Assembly (NCBI GenBank): GCA_035457425.1
Contig: DATIBR010000052.1
Span: forward strand, 1 to 64,000
Source: Terriglobales bacterium
GTDB taxonomy: Bacteria; Acidobacteriota; Terriglobia; Terriglobales; Acidobacteriaceae
Length of the DNA: 64,000 bases
Reading direction: 5' to 3'
How positions within the stretch are numbered: the first letter of the stretch is position 1; the number at the start of each line of letters is the position of its first letter. A program made the translations under genes and the position numbers. The notes under the pieces were generated by a model, which was given only the letters and a program-made list of their open reading frames with translations, was not told where the DNA came from and did not search any database. Positions 2 to 43,679 of this stretch are shown here, one piece after another.

Positions 2-1693
2 GTGCGCCTCTTCGTCGAGCGCGCCCAGGAAGTCCATCCCGGCTTCTCGCTGGACGCCGAGAACGCACGCGCCATCGCCCAGATCTGCCAGCGCCTGGAC
101 GGCCTGCCGCTCGCCATCGAGCTCGCCGCCGCGCGCATCAAGCTGCTCTCCCCGTCGGCGATGCTCGCCCGCCTGGAAAGCTCGCTCAGCCTGCTGACCG
201 GCGGCGCGCGCGACCTGCCCACTCGCCAGCAGACGCTCCGCGGCACCGTGGAGTGGAGCTACAAGCTGCTCGGATCCGCCGAGCAGATGCTCGTCCGCCG
301 CCTCGCCGTCTTCATCGGAGGCTGCACCTTGGAGGCGGTCGAGGCCGTCTGCGACACCAAGGGCGATCTCGGTCTCGACATCCTCGACGGCATGGCCTCG
401 GTCGCCGACAAGAGCCTGGTGCAGCAAGTGCAGGAAGCCGGCGCCGAGGCGCGCTTCACCATGCTCTCCACCATCCGCGAGTACGCCCGCGAGCAGCTGG
501 CGGCCGCGGGCGAGGAGCCCGCGGTGCGGCGTGCCCACGCGGCATACTTCCTGGTGCTGGCGGAGGAAGGCTCCGAGCTGGTCGTCAGCGACCCGGCTTG
601 GCTGGCGCGCTTCGACGCCGAGCACCGCAACTTCCTCGCCGCCATCGACTACCTCGTCGCCACCGGGGAATCCGATTGGGGGCTGCGCCTGGGCGCCGCG
701 CTCTTCCGCTTCTGGGAGACGCGCGAGCACCTGGCCGAGGGTCGCGCGCAGCTCGCGCGCCTGCTGGCGGTGCCGGGCAGCCAGGCCGGGACGAAGCTGC
801 GCGCACGGCTGCTGTTCTCCTCGGCCGTGCTGGCGGGCGAGCAGGGCGACTACGGCTCGGCGCAGAAGCTGCTCGAGCAGAGCCTCGCGGTCTGCCGCGC
901 GCTCGGCGATACCCGCGGCGTCGCGGTGGCGCTCAACGCGCTCGCCGTCAACGCGCGCGATCGCGGCGAGCTGAGCATGGCGGCCGAGCTGTTCGAGCAG
1001 TGCGTCGGGATCTGGCGCGAGCTGGGCGCCCCGGTCGACGTCGCGCGCGCTCTCAGCAACCTTGCCAGCGCCAGCAAGCTCCTCGGCGATTACGCCCGCG
1101 CCGGTACGCTCTACCAGGAATGTCTCGCCACCTTCCGCGCCATCGGCGACGAGGCCGGCGCCGCCTGGACACTCAACTACACCGGCGACATGGCGCGCGA
1201 GCAGCGCGACTTCGCCGCGGCGCGCTCTGCCTACGAGCAGGCGCTGGCCGCGTTCCGCGAGCTGCACGATGGCTGGGGCCGGGCCAGCGTGCTCTGTGAT
1301 CTCGCCAGCCTGGATTGCGACCAGCAGGATTTCGCCGGCGCCCAGCGCCTGTTCGGGGAGAGCATCCGCATCTTCCAGGAACTCGGGCACAAGCGCGGGA
1401 TCGCCCGCGTGCTGGAGAGCCTGGCCATCTCGGCGGTCGCACAGGGGAAGGCGCCCGAAGCGCTCCGCCTGGCGGGCGCGGCGGCCGCGCTGCGCGAGCG
1501 CGTGGGAGCGCCGCTCACACCCGCGCAGAACAGCGCGCTGGAGTCCGCCTTGAAGCCCGCGCATGCCGCGCTCGAAGGCGCGCTAGGCACCAGCGCCTGG
1601 ATGGAAGGCTACAGCCTGCCGCTGGCGAAAGTGGTGGAAGAGGTCGTCGGCAAAGAGGTGGCGCAGGGGTTGAGCACCCCGCGCCCCGCCTGA
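2..1693 (+). CDS. NB-ARC/TPR ATPase-type regulator, C-terminal part (5' truncated by window edge)
   Basis: Open from the first base, so the true start lies upstream; the GTG at position 2 is an internal valine. The first ~60 residues hold the GLPLAIELAAAR motif that ends NB-ARC domains of AfsR/LuxR/adenylate-cyclase-type ATPases, followed by a winged-helix-like block (RQQTLRGTVEWSY, residues ~75-125). From about residue 250 to 500 the protein is a run of alanine-rich 34-40-residue helical hairpins of TPR type, each with an LG-D--G-A-AL pattern. Family knowledge: these are STAND-type signalling ATPases, often with an N-terminal DNA-binding or cyclase domain, which would be outside the window. 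The input and output functions cannot be stated. Confidence 0.8.
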   Translation: MRLFVERAQEVHPGFSLDAENARAIAQICQRLDGLPLAIELAAARIKLLSPSAMLARLESSLSLLTGGARDLPTRQQTLRGTVEWSYKLLGSAEQMLVRRLAVFIGGCTLEAVEAVCDTKGDLGLDILDGMASVADKSLVQQVQEAGAEARFTMLSTIREYAREQLAAAGEEPAVRRAHAAYFLVLAEEGSELVVSDPAWLARFDAEHRNFLAAIDYLVATGESDWGLRLGAALFRFWETREHLAEGRAQLARLLAVPGSQAGTKLRARLLFSSAVLAGEQGDYGSAQKLLEQSLAVCRALGDTRGVAVALNALAVNARDRGELSMAAELFEQCVGIWRELGAPVDVARALSNLASASKLLGDYARAGTLYQECLATFRAIGDEAGAAWTLNYTGDMAREQRDFAAARSAYEQALAAFRELHDGWGRASVLCDLASLDCDQQDFAGAQRLFGESIRIFQELGHKRGIARVLESLAISAVAQGKAPEALRLAGAAAALRERVGAPLTPAQNSALESALKPAHAALEGALGTSAWMEGYSLPLAKVVEEVVGKEVAQGLSTPRPA

Positions 1694-1966
1694 TCAGTCC
1701 GCGGTCGTCGGGTCGATCAGCCGCCGCACCGCCGAGATGCGATTCGCCGGGAAGCCGCCCCGCCGCGCGTGCTCCCGGATGGTGTCCTCATCGGGAGCGA
1801 GATACACGCAGTACACCTTGTCGCCGGTCACGTAGCTGTGCAGCCACTTGATCTCCGGTCCCATGTCCCGCAGGACGCCGACGGACTTCGCGGCGATGGC
1901 CTGCAGCTCAGCGTCCGACAGTTTTCCCGCCCCGGGAATCTCGCGCTCGATCACGAATTGCGGCAT
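1694..1966 (-). CDS. DUF4242 (SCO4226-like nickel-binding) small protein
   Basis: A 90-residue soluble protein without signal peptide. It begins MPQFVIEREIPGAGKLS and carries the conserved block WLHSYVTGDKVYCVYLAPDE typical of DUF4242, a small ferredoxin-like fold family whose Streptomyces member SCO4226 binds nickel. An ATG start follows a good GAGGTGG ribosome-binding site. It is tail-to-tail with the upstream TPR gene, with the two stop codons adjacent. Family assignment rests on sequence pattern; the metal specificity is knowledge of a distant homologue only. Confidence 0.75.
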   Translation of the reverse strand: MPQFVIEREIPGAGKLSDAELQAIAAKSVGVLRDMGPEIKWLHSYVTGDKVYCVYLAPDEDTIREHARRGGFPANRISAVRRLIDPTTAD

Positions 1967-2249
1967 TGGCCCACCTCGGAAAAAATATTAGCAGAATCAT
2001 TCGCGCCGCGTTTTGCGGACGGCAAGAGCCGGCTCCCCGCCCCTGCCCCCGACACCTCCTGGTCCAGCCGGACGTTGCTATACGAGAGTTTCTGCTCCGC
2101 TGGACGCCCAATCCGGGAACCGATGCCGATCTGGGACGCCTCGGAGCCCCGGCCGCGCCTGGCGGGCACCGCTATGCCGCTTCTTTTCAGCTTCTTGCGA
2201 GTGGTGGCTGAAGTGCAACGTAAGTAGTCGAATCCGAAAAGGGGTCGAT
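1967..2249. other. Divergent intergenic region
   Basis: A 283-base spacer between the divergently transcribed DUF4242 gene and the hybrid kinase. Reading frames run through it on both strands but lack ribosome-binding sites and family resemblance. I see no convincing repeat, tRNA or riboswitch here; promoters for both genes should lie in it but none stands out. Confidence 0.5.
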
Positions 2250-40480: not shown

Positions 40481-41819
40481 ATGGTTATGAAGACCGTTTC
40501 CGTCGTGCTGGCGGTGGTGTTGTGCATTCTTCTGCTTAATCTTTGGCTGGGAATACCGCCCGCAGAAGCTCAGAGTTCTTGCCCGAATCTGACGCAATTG
40601 ACGGTCAACGGTACCGCCGACAAGGGACCTCAACAAGGTGCTTCTATCACGGTCTACGTAGTGGGTGATCTGGGAAGCTCACAGTCGGCGATGTCGGCAA
40701 TTACGGCCGCCATGCAAGGCTGGACAGGAATGACCGGCTCAACGGTGACCTTCAGCATTAGCGCAGTTGCCACAGTTCCGTCAGGAACATCCTCTGCATC
40801 GAATCCAGTATTCATCTTTACAAACGGTGGAACTGCGGCCTGTGGAGGCACGGGTGCCTGTACCACATCTCAACTCAACTCGGGAGGGAACGTCACATTA
40901 GCGCAGACAAAACATCGATCCTAATCAGGTGCAACCATATATGGCTGGATTTACTGCACTCATGGCACACGAGGCGGGCCACATCTGGGGCTTCAACGAT
41001 TGCTCCGGCTGTTCGAACACGACGATGAATACGCCGGTCACTTCCACTTCTCCTACCAGTCCGACATCCTGTGACCAACAGGCTGCCTACAATTTCAGCA
41101 ACGGCGCATACGGCACGCCACCACCATCTGGCGGCGGCGGTGGGACCGGTGGCGGAAGCGGCGGCGGTGATTTCGAGTGCTTCATAGACGGTGCTCAGAT
41201 CTGTCGTAACTGCGGAGCCTGCAGCCCCATCATTGTCGACATGGACGGGAACGACTTTCAGCTAACAAGTTTTGGCGGCGGTGTTCGGTTCGATCTGAAT
41301 CGCGATGGCCGGGCCGGACAAATCGCTTGGACGTCAGCCGTATCGGATGATGCATTTCTCGCGTTGGACCGAAACGGCAACGGAAGAATCGACGACGGGG
41401 GCGAGCTATTCGGCAATTTCACAGACCAACCTGCAAGCAGCAGCCCCAACGGGTTCCTCGCACTAGCGGAGTTGGATAAGCCGGTGAACGGTGGGAACGG
41501 AAACGGGGTAATTGATCCAGGCGACGTTGTGTACTGGTCGCTTCGGCTCTGGCAGGATAAGAATCATGATGGAATCTCCGATCCCGCCGAGCTCTTATCG
41601 CTATCGTGGGCGGGCATTGCCTCCATAGCACTGGACTATCGCCGCTCGGAGCGGCAAGACAGATTCGGTAATCTGCTGCGCTATCGCGCGAAAGTGACGA
41701 AAGCCGACGGAAGCAGCAGGTGGGCCTATGACGTGTTTTTCGTGATTGACGACTTTCGCACGGCGGTTCTACGCCCGGAATGCCGGGCCAATCAGAGTAA
41801 GGTCGATCAAATGCACTAG
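40481..41819 (+). pseudogene. Exported metzincin-type protease with RTX-like Ca2+-binding region, frameshifted
   Basis: Two overlapping-phase frames, 40481-40924 and 40929-41819, read as one protein if one A is removed from the AAAA run at 40909-40912; the joined text continues QTNIDPNQVQPYMAGF. The first part has a signal peptide and a beta-rich prodomain-like segment. The second begins with HEAGHIWGFND, a HExxHxxGxxD metzincin zinc motif with Asp as third ligand, and NTTMNT as a candidate Met-turn. After a glycine linker comes a calcium-binding block like that of RTX toxins ([53 protein letters not shown]). Either a sequencing indel, a disabled gene or a rare +1 frameshift. Confidence 0.75.
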
Positions 41820-41879
41820 AGGAACTGCGGAGGCGTGCGGCACGCGAGCAGCGTGCCGCTTTCCATTTGGCCTCTCTTG

Positions 41880-42470
41880 CTACTTGTGCTGCGCGTGTGC
41901 CGCGTCGTCGCGCCCCACGCCGAGCGCGTCGGCCACGCGGTTGATGTAGTTGAACCACGAAGTGATGAGCGTGATCTGCAGGATGCCGCGGTCGTCGAAG
42001 CCGGCCGCTCGCAGCTTGTCATGATCTTTCGGCGAGCACTGCGTGGCGTCTTTCGTGACCTTCACCACGTAGTCGAGCATGGCGCGGTCCTCGGCCGGCA
42101 GGTCGGCCTTGGTGTAGTCGCGCTCGAGCTGCGCGACGAACTCCTGATCCAGCGTGACGCGACGCAGAAACTCTGCGTGGGCGCCGATTCAATACACGCA
42201 CCGGTTCGTCACCGAAACGACGGTGGTGATCATCTCGTGCTGGCGGCGCGTGAGCGGCAGCTCCGGCGACATCAGCGCGCCGAACGTGGCGAACGCGTGG
42301 TAGAGCGCCTGCGGAATGAGCGAGTGCGATTCCACGATCGACGCCCCGCCGCTCTCCGACGGGTGCACCGGCACCGCGTACTCGATCGGGTACAGCTCCT
42401 TCTGCGCTTCCATCGCCCGCAACAGTTCGGGCGAGGCCTCCTGCGGTTTGACCGTCTTGATCCAGGGCAT
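41880..42470 (-). CDS. AhpD-like peroxidase-related protein, probable selenoprotein (in-frame TGA = Sec94)
   Basis: Reading from ATG 42470 to TAG 41880 gives 196 residues interrupted only by one TGA at 42191-42189. The protein belongs to the alkylhydroperoxidase AhpD / carboxymuconolactone decarboxylase family (peroxidase-related enzyme branch): [36 protein letters not shown]-[TGA][12 protein letters not shown], then [24 protein letters not shown]. The family redox motif is CxxC(x)3H; here C91-V-Y-TGA94-I-G-A-H98 puts the TGA exactly at the second, resolving cysteine. The frame stays open for 102 sense codons after it. A stem-loop fit for a bacterial SECIS starts 11 bases downstream. Alternative: a Cys codon (TGC) mutated or misread as TGA. 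Sec machinery genes are not in this window. Confidence 0.82.
42162..42178 (-). promoter_or_regulatory. Candidate bacterial SECIS hairpin
   Basis: On the minus strand, ACGCAG-AGTTT-CTGCGT: a perfect 6-bp stem with a 5-base loop carrying G-U at loop positions 2-3. The loop G is 18 bases after the TGA. Family knowledge: bacterial SECIS elements sit just downstream of the UGA with a conserved G(U) in the apical loop read by SelB. A lower stem could extend through GCG/CGC with a CCC bulge. Confidence 0.65.
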
Positions 42471-42554
42471 GCGCGAAAAATATCACAACGCCGCATGACA
42501 AATGCACCCCTGCGGCATCAAAAGGAGTAGAACCCAAGGACAACCGAGGACTCT

Positions 42555-43127
42555 ATGAAGCGCGCTCTCCGTGTGTTGCTCGTGCTCGCCTGCGGCGTCG
42601 CCCTGGCCTCCGCCGGCAACAAGGATAAGAAAAAGGTGAAGACGCCGGTGCCCGCCCTCGTCACCCAGGCGCAGTACGTCTACCTCACCAGCTACGACGG
42701 CCCCGAGACTTCGTTCGGCGTCTCGCCCGCCGACCGTCAGGCGCTCGCCACCGTGCAGGACGCCATCCGCAAGTGGGGCAAGTACAGGGTCACGCTCCGC
42801 CAGCAGGACGCCGACCTCATCCTGCTGGTGCGCGCCGGCCGCACGCTCGACGCTCGTGTCGGCGGCGGCGTCCACACCGGCAGCGACCGCCCCACGACCA
42901 CGACCGGCCCGAACACGCGCGTGGAAGTGAGTTCCTCCGGCCTTGAGGACGAGTTGGCGGTCTACCAGCGCGCTGCCGGCCTCAACTCCGCGCCGCTCTG
43001 GCGCGGCCTGATGGCCAACGGCCTGCAAGCTCCCGCCCCGGCTCTGGTCGAGAAGCTCCGCGCCGCCGTCGAGGAGACCGAAAAGGTCCTGAAAGAGCAG
43101 GAGCAGCAGAAGAAACAGAAGCCCTAG
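42555..43127 (+). CDS. Exported conserved protein, tandem paralogue 1
   Basis: A 190-residue protein with signal peptide (MKRALRVLLVLACGVALASA) followed by a KDKKKVK basic patch. Core: ALVTQAQYVYLTSYDGPE, a helix-strand unit AIRKWGKYRVTLRQQDADLILLVRAGR, a low-complexity Thr/Gly insert, then LEDELAVYQRAAGLNSAPLWRGLMANGL. No named family is recognised; the layout resembles small periplasmic alpha/beta domains. The next gene encodes a clear paralogue sharing all three core blocks. Divergent from the AhpD-like gene. Confidence 0.7.
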   Translation: MKRALRVLLVLACGVALASAGNKDKKKVKTPVPALVTQAQYVYLTSYDGPETSFGVSPADRQALATVQDAIRKWGKYRVTLRQQDADLILLVRAGRTLDARVGGGVHTGSDRPTTTTGPNTRVEVSSSGLEDELAVYQRAAGLNSAPLWRGLMANGLQAPAPALVEKLRAAVEETEKVLKEQEQQKKQKP

Positions 43128-43208
43128 GTGACCGCCGTCACTGCAGGAGCGCCACCACGCTTCTACGCTTCACGCTGGAGAGGTCCGCGACCTCTCCGGG
43201 AGGCGATT

Positions 43209-43679
43209 ATGAAACGCCTGGTCTGCGGAGCGCTCCTGCTGCTGTTGTTCGGGACCCTCGCGGCAGGGCAGCGCGAGAAGAAGCGCGTGATGCCCACGCT
43301 GATCGTGAACGCGCAGTACGTCTACGTCACGACCTACGAAGGTTCCGCGCCGCTGCCCCAGGTCTCGGTCGAGAACCTGCGCGCCATCGCCATAGTCGAG
43401 AACGCCATCAAGTCGTGGGGCCGCTACAGGGTGACGCAGCGCGCCGCCAACGCCGACATCATCATCCTGGTCAACGAAGGGCGGCCGTACGCTTCCAGCG
43501 GCGGCGGCAGCTTCGAGGACGAGCTCGCCATCTACGACGCGCGCGACGGCCTCAACAGCTCGCCGCTGTGGCGCGGCCTCATGGTCGACGGCCTCGAAGG
43601 CAACGCCCCGCTGGTGCAGCAGTTCCGCACCGAGGTCGAGGAAGCCGCCCGCCAGTTGCCGCAACCCAAAGGCGCGTAG
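43209..43679 (+). CDS. Exported conserved protein, tandem paralogue 2
   Basis: A 156-residue protein with signal peptide (MKRLVCGALLLLLFGTLAAG). It shares with its upstream neighbour TLIVNAQYVYVTTYEGS, AIKSWGRYRVTQRAANADIIILVNEGR and FEDELAIYDARDGLNSSPLWRGLMVDGLEGNAP, but lacks the Thr/Gly insert. The start is taken at the ATG after GGGAGGCGATT (43198 on). The pair arose by tandem duplication and has diverged substantially. Function unknown. Confidence 0.7.
   Translation: MKRLVCGALLLLLFGTLAAGQREKKRVMPTLIVNAQYVYVTTYEGSAPLPQVSVENLRAIAIVENAIKSWGRYRVTQRAANADIIILVNEGRPYASSGGGSFEDELAIYDARDGLNSSPLWRGLMVDGLEGNAPLVQQFRTEVEEAARQLPQPKGA

Follow-up and report, generated by a model that had tools for sequence, protein, structure and literature searches.

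Reading frame of the interrupted gene

The window, by which we mean the whole 64,000-nt stretch of DNA analyzed here, belongs to an Acidobacteriota MAG that is 96% complete (G000). Its minus strand carries an AhpD-like gene of 196 codons that begins with an ATG at position 42470 and ends with a TAG at positions 41882–41880. A preliminary description of the locus stated that this frame is broken only by a TGA at codon 94. Translation confirmed the statement: the only interruption is located at positions 42191–42189, in the context N-R-C91-V-Y-TGA94-I-G-A-H98, which corresponds to a CxxU(x)3H motif. The gene and the elements within it are as follows.

41880..42470, minus strand: coding sequence of a predicted 196-aa selenoprotein, AhpD-like/peroxidase-related (TIGR01926, CMD superfamily), defined by a single in-frame TGA and by TIGR01926 and Pfam CMD scores
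42234..42236, minus strand: Glu79, which takes the place of the proton-relay glutamate of AhpD and precedes Cys91 by 12 residues; invariant, with the same spacing as Glu118-Cys130 of M. tuberculosis AhpD
42198..42200, minus strand: Cys91, which partners Sec94 in the CxxU motif as the resolving cysteine; the same in all members of a 23-sequence alignment and replaced by Thr in the Cys form L123
42189..42191, minus strand: UGA codon 94, almost certainly read as selenocysteine (Sec), the second of the two redox residues in CxxU; TGA in 109 of 111 homologues and TGC in 2
42177..42179, minus strand: His98, which takes the place of the proton-relay histidine of AhpD according to motif and alignment; the 5′ arm of the hairpin overlaps this codon
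42162..42178, minus strand: SECIS hairpin ACGCAGA-GUU-UCUGCGU, 7 bp with a 3-nt apical loop starting with GU, recognized by folding, conservation, and frozen synonymous sites
42156..42185, minus strand: possible lower stem lengthening the SECIS hairpin (GGCGC/GCGUC), which folds in the window sequence and is not conserved among relatives

Since an in-frame stop is located four codons 5′ of the ATG, the start position is well bounded. With translation table 11, the ORF ends as a 93-aa product, in line with the earlier expectation that standard gene callers truncate the gene. On the opposite strand, a 231-codon open frame (window positions 41835–42530, plus strand) is antisense to the whole gene, and a gene caller could report that frame instead. 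Standard callers would either cut the gene to 93 aa or swap it for the antisense ORF, an error that the 196-codon reading corrects.

The frame downstream of the TGA is not open by chance, since GC3 stays high (0.92 before the TGA versus 0.89 in the 102 codons after it), tblastn matches to relatives continue uninterrupted across the TGA at 54 to 76% identity, and the TGA itself is kept in nearly all homologous frames, as described below. The 102 codons had been described as family-like, and the downstream half is indeed conserved in relatives, with residues kept up to codon 187 across phyla. If the UGA were a real stop, the gene would function through its 93-aa N-terminal product, and the codons 3′ of the stop would be accidental. 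The tidy 93-aa ORF obtained with table 11 fits this possibility. However, such a product would stop short of the second redox residue and of His98 and would contain less than half of the fold; the conservation up to codon 187 also argues against it, and Cys versions of the gene (L089 and L123) continue straight through this position. We therefore regard termination at codon 94 as extremely improbable.

Conservation of the TGA codon and of the downstream hairpin

Codon 94 was readable in 111 homologous frames, taken from this genome and from others: it is TGA in 109 of them and TGC in two (L089 and L123). The frames were collected in a species-level scan and a phylum survey; since a few records may be common to both sources, the 111 frames are not all independent. 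The species-level scan, in which one genome per species was used and none of the peptide patterns covered the TGA region, yielded 80 loci with 54 to 76% identity. Most of them come from Acidobacteriota, the other phyla, as given in the record titles, being Gemmatimonadetes, Planctomycetes, Latescibacterota, Zixiibacteriota, Poribacteria, KSB1, and Armatimonadetes. Homologues without the UGA have Cys at this position, as seen in the TGC homologues and in solved homologues (in three of the three alignments with solved relatives displayed). The in-frame UGA is thus located where homologues hold Cys, and C91, U94, and H98 are aligned, in agreement with the earlier proposal that the TGA stands for the second cysteine of a CxxC(x)3H motif. 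In L123 (genome G014), the motif is T-R-Y-C: the partner cysteine is replaced by Thr, and a single cysteine is left at the Sec position.

A remoter group of CxxU AhpD-like genes from the same phylum (L125–L130, 38 to 45% identity) has the TGA too; their hairpins are altered, and most of them still pair.

As the window comes from a MAG, the TGA could represent a recent nonsense mutation in a pseudogene or a sequencing or assembly error, such as a miscalled TGC or TGT. This explanation is already refuted by the presence of the same TGA in 109 of the 111 frames, which derive from many separate assemblies and several phyla. The conservation of the downstream half and the frozen synonymous sites described next also speak against it, and the chance that it is correct is, in our estimate, negligible.

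The hairpin starts 10 nt 3′ of the UGA, and the spacing between the UGA and the loop is 17 nt. When the 17-nt hairpin was folded alone, its energy was −8.2 kcal/mol (z = −4.46); the whole 45-nt region folded only modestly better than its own shuffles (z = −1.56). The folding signal resides in the 17-nt hairpin. According to published bSECIS rules, the stem should be 4 to 16 bp, the loop 3 to 9 nt with a G in one of its first two positions, the distance from the UGA to the loop 16 to 37 nt, and the MFE at most −7.5 (PMC13188914). The window hairpin agrees with these rules in loop, stem, spacing, G, and energy.

The identical 17-mer is present in 87 of the 111 sequences. Among 102 UGA orthologues, the mean normalized synonymous entropy of hairpin codons 98 to 103 is 0.08 versus 0.79 for 79 other conserved codons, and each of 169 other codons varies more than these do. 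Of 104 distinct sequences, 97 keep every one of the six outer pairs, compared to a mean of 3.0 and a maximum of 8 expected from 200 synonymous reshufflings that used each gene’s own codon usage. Three more distant relatives (about 38 to 45% identity) have G-C in place of C-G at pair 4, with both sides changed. The hairpins of the Cys forms are decayed, with five of the six outer pairs intact in L089 and three of the six in L123. Overall, these results are strong evidence that the hairpin is selected beyond protein coding, and the frozen hairpin, set beside its decay in Cys forms, offers a clean comparative example of selection on a SECIS.

The near-identity of a 17-nt coding SECIS across phyla, in an orthologue group dominated by Sec, could also mean that the element has a dual use, for example, in selenium or peroxide regulation via the same hairpin. 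We consider this improbable. If the frozen 17-mer does reflect more than SelB binding, it would be an unusual dual-use SECIS, and the permease operon of other phyla (see below) would point to a function outside peroxide defence.

Selenocysteine machinery in the genome and in the phylum

The preliminary description made the Sec reading depend on the presence of the sel genes and tRNA-Sec. All four were found in the genome: selA (563 bits), selB (337 bits, with a frame running into a contig end and thus covered up to that point), selD (373 bits; contig C127, L092 from about position 1478, plus strand), and a tRNA-Sec with a TCA anticodon. Weak RF01852 matches of about 30 to 48 bits were excluded as tRNA-Sec; one that was examined (L096, 48.1 bits) is a tRNA-Ser. 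The selD frame itself contains one TGA in its active-site region (A-A-G-U-A-S); SelD is therefore probably a selenoprotein in this organism.

In the phylum survey of 297 genomes, a UGA homologue (E value of 1e-30 or better) was detected in 28, and 26 of these 28 have a full selA. The remaining two genomes are 75 and 72% complete and contain fragments of the Sec machinery: a tRNA-Sec at 70 bits plus the end of selA at a contig edge in G080, and a SelB C-terminal match in G266. The occurrence of selA and that of the UGA gene are associated (odds ratio of 7.9, Fisher P = 0.0007 over the 297 genomes, by statistics that ignore kinship). With selA present in 193 of the 297 genomes, the gene is widespread in the phylum, and the association is therefore moderate. 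Cys forms of the orthologue group occur only in genomes without selA: in both of them (G014 and the genome of L089), there was no selA match, no above-cutoff selB, and no tRNA-Sec match over the tRNA-Ser background. These two cases suggest that replacement of Sec by Cys goes along with the absence of the Sec machinery.

The open frame across the UGA, and nothing else, would also be expected if UGA were reassigned genome-wide to Trp or Gly (codes 4/25) or if ordinary suppression allowed it to be read. However, non-UGA homologues have Cys rather than Trp or Gly at this position, the genome possesses a complete Sec set including tRNA-Sec, and the hairpin linked to the UGA is under selection. We assign a vanishingly small probability to reassignment or suppression. 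The conservation of the TGA in several phyla, the Sec genes, and the selected SECIS hairpin instead support the earlier proposal that this TGA encodes selenocysteine, and the gene almost certainly encodes a 196-residue selenoprotein with Sec at UGA94. SelB carrying Sec-tRNA-Sec would be recruited to the hairpin that starts 10 nt past the UGA and, bound there, would deliver its tRNA, such that UGA94 is decoded as Sec and not as a stop.

Family, active site, and probable role of the protein

The read-through product scores 114.7 bits with the TIGR01926 model “peroxidase-related enzyme” (cutoff of 81.8) and 42.7 bits with Pfam CMD (cutoff of 23). The protein is thus a member of the TIGR01926 “peroxidase-related” group in the AhpD/CMD superfamily, and its Sec94 position is that of the second cysteine of the AhpD active site. 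In an alignment of 23 diverse homologues, E79, C91, U94, and H98 are invariant (with U read as C) and Tyr93 is nearly so; the family’s CxxC/U(x)3H motif and upstream relay Glu are therefore both present. The predicted structure (mean pLDDT of 79) has the all-helical AhpD fold, and its best PDB matches are 6k40 (D. radiodurans AhpD), 2prr, 3c1l, and 2pfx. By sequence, the closest solved relatives are 2pfx, 2prr, 3c1l, 2oyo, and 6k40, which are Cys-form peroxidase-related AhpD-like proteins. The fold of 2prr, 2pfx, 3c1l, and 6k40 is the same near full length (TM of about 0.75), and their CxxC(x)3H motif and upstream Glu align with those of the window protein; they differ in having Cys instead of Sec, and identity is 22 to 28% in most full-length structural alignments. 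Weaker fold matches include the debrominase Bmp8.

M. tuberculosis AhpD shares the superfamily and the active-site layout, with Glu118, Cys130, Cys133, and His137 corresponding to Glu79, Cys91, Sec94, and His98, but its overall fold match is weak (Foldseek E value of 0.06 and worse, TM of 0.39 to 0.55). Its His132 corresponds to Tyr93 here, and likewise to Tyr50 in P. aeruginosa PA0269 (PMC3141380).

In the published AhpD scheme, two redox residues act via a proton relay, and peroxide is reduced either directly or via the peroxiredoxin AhpC (PMC3141380; PMC8945050). D. radiodurans lacking AhpD is sensitive to H2O2; CxxC mutants complement it poorly, and CxxC is required for full complementation (PMC8945050). 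By analogy, this role may extend to the window protein. The Cys91-X-X-Sec94 pair, together with a proton relay of Glu79, Tyr93, and His98, would most likely form a fast selenol/thiol redox center. Such a center could reduce peroxide directly, the selenol being converted to a selenenic acid that Cys91 would resolve as a selenenylsulfide. Alternatively, a peroxiredoxin-type partner could receive electrons from it, in the way that AhpC receives them from AhpD. In AhpD, the second redox position is the one that attacks peroxide. The L123 form, where the cysteine at position 91 is lost and that at position 94 is kept, is consistent with an attack on peroxide by the second position.

The most likely role of the protein is thus that of a small selenol/thiol peroxidase or a peroxiredoxin-reducing adaptor. 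The frame, the kept TGA, the hairpin and its selection, the Sec genes, and the family and fold are direct results of the computations; Sec insertion itself, a peroxidase or disulfide-reductase activity, and any substrate and reductant are inferred. Several points count against the preferred explanation as a whole: the function of TIGR01926 proteins is thinly characterized, the window has no redox partner gene next to this one, the 45-nt region as a whole folds only modestly better than its shuffles, and the genome is a MAG. A role in peroxide defence, judged separately, appears probable. Sec could also be inserted into a protein that acts on another substrate, for example, one linked to the permease described below, or into a thiol-based reductive enzyme like Bmp8, which has the same fold. 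The presence of Bmp8 among the weaker fold matches and the permease genes ending close upstream in 19 orthologues favor this possibility; the closest sequences and folds, which are peroxidase-related AhpD-like proteins, and the Glu/Cys/Tyr/Cys/His layout, which matches that of the AhpD-like PA0269, argue against it. We consider it possible though rather unlikely, an estimate that competes with the functional half of the preferred explanation only and is not on the same scale as those given for the readings of the UGA.

Inside the window, the neighboring genes at 40929–41819 and 42555–43679 (both plus strand) have no Pfam match and offer no functional clue, and no redox partner gene is located beside the selenoprotein gene. 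A plasmid search revealed nothing. Upstream flanks of at least 1 kb were available for 91 orthologues. In 19 orthologues, one of which (L062) has a shorter flank, the gene of an amino acid permease (AA_permease_2) ends just upstream, at a distance of about 80 nt or less in 18 and of 213 nt in one. These loci (L048, L051, L052, L062, L065, L066, L073, L076, L077, L079, L080, L089, L107, L109, L110, L112, L115, L116, and L124) come from several phyla and include the Cys form L089. At many Acidobacteriota loci (L011, L014, L020, L021, L024, L030, L033, L037, L039, L043, L049, L054, L057, L060, and others), the gene is followed on the same strand by that of an AMP-binding enzyme with acyl-carrier and acyltransferase domains. 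Neither of these genes adjoins the selenoprotein gene in the window.

Proteins of this kind are not new. The Sargasso Sea survey (PMC1088965) and the GOS survey (PMC2398784) both described AhpD-like selenoproteins with CxxU, and an “AhpD-like protein, TIGR01926, CxxU” has an entry in a review from 2026 (PMC13188914). Since such proteins are already catalogued, the gene adds to a known kind and would be expected by specialists. The example in that review (its reference 59; MCB9421940.1) is assigned to the same family model, whose cutoff the window protein exceeds, and has the same CxxU, the comparison covering family model and motif; the window gene is from Acidobacteriota and has a 17-nt SECIS that is near-frozen across phyla. 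None of the NCBIfam models named (seleno)protein covers the window protein above its cutoff. The AhpD_rel_CFYUT (seleno)protein model NF041238 has a related AhpD domain, likewise with CxxU, but is longer (357 positions), and the window protein is not a member (57.4 bits versus a cutoff of 175). The match to the YciW-related (seleno)protein model NF053654, which is named as potentially Sec-containing, is weak (23.8 bits, far under the cutoff of 310). To the selenoproteome of soil bacteria, on which the literature that we found is thin, the gene adds a well-supported multiphylum group.

The same genome contains a second AhpD-like gene, on contig C90 (L002, positions 1483–2010, minus strand). It encodes 175 aa with the motif C78-E-Y-U81, and here too the codon of the second redox residue is TGA, with a hairpin of 7 bp downstream of it. 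Its product scores 108.8 bits with TIGR01926 and 104.7 bits, below the cutoff, with NF053654.
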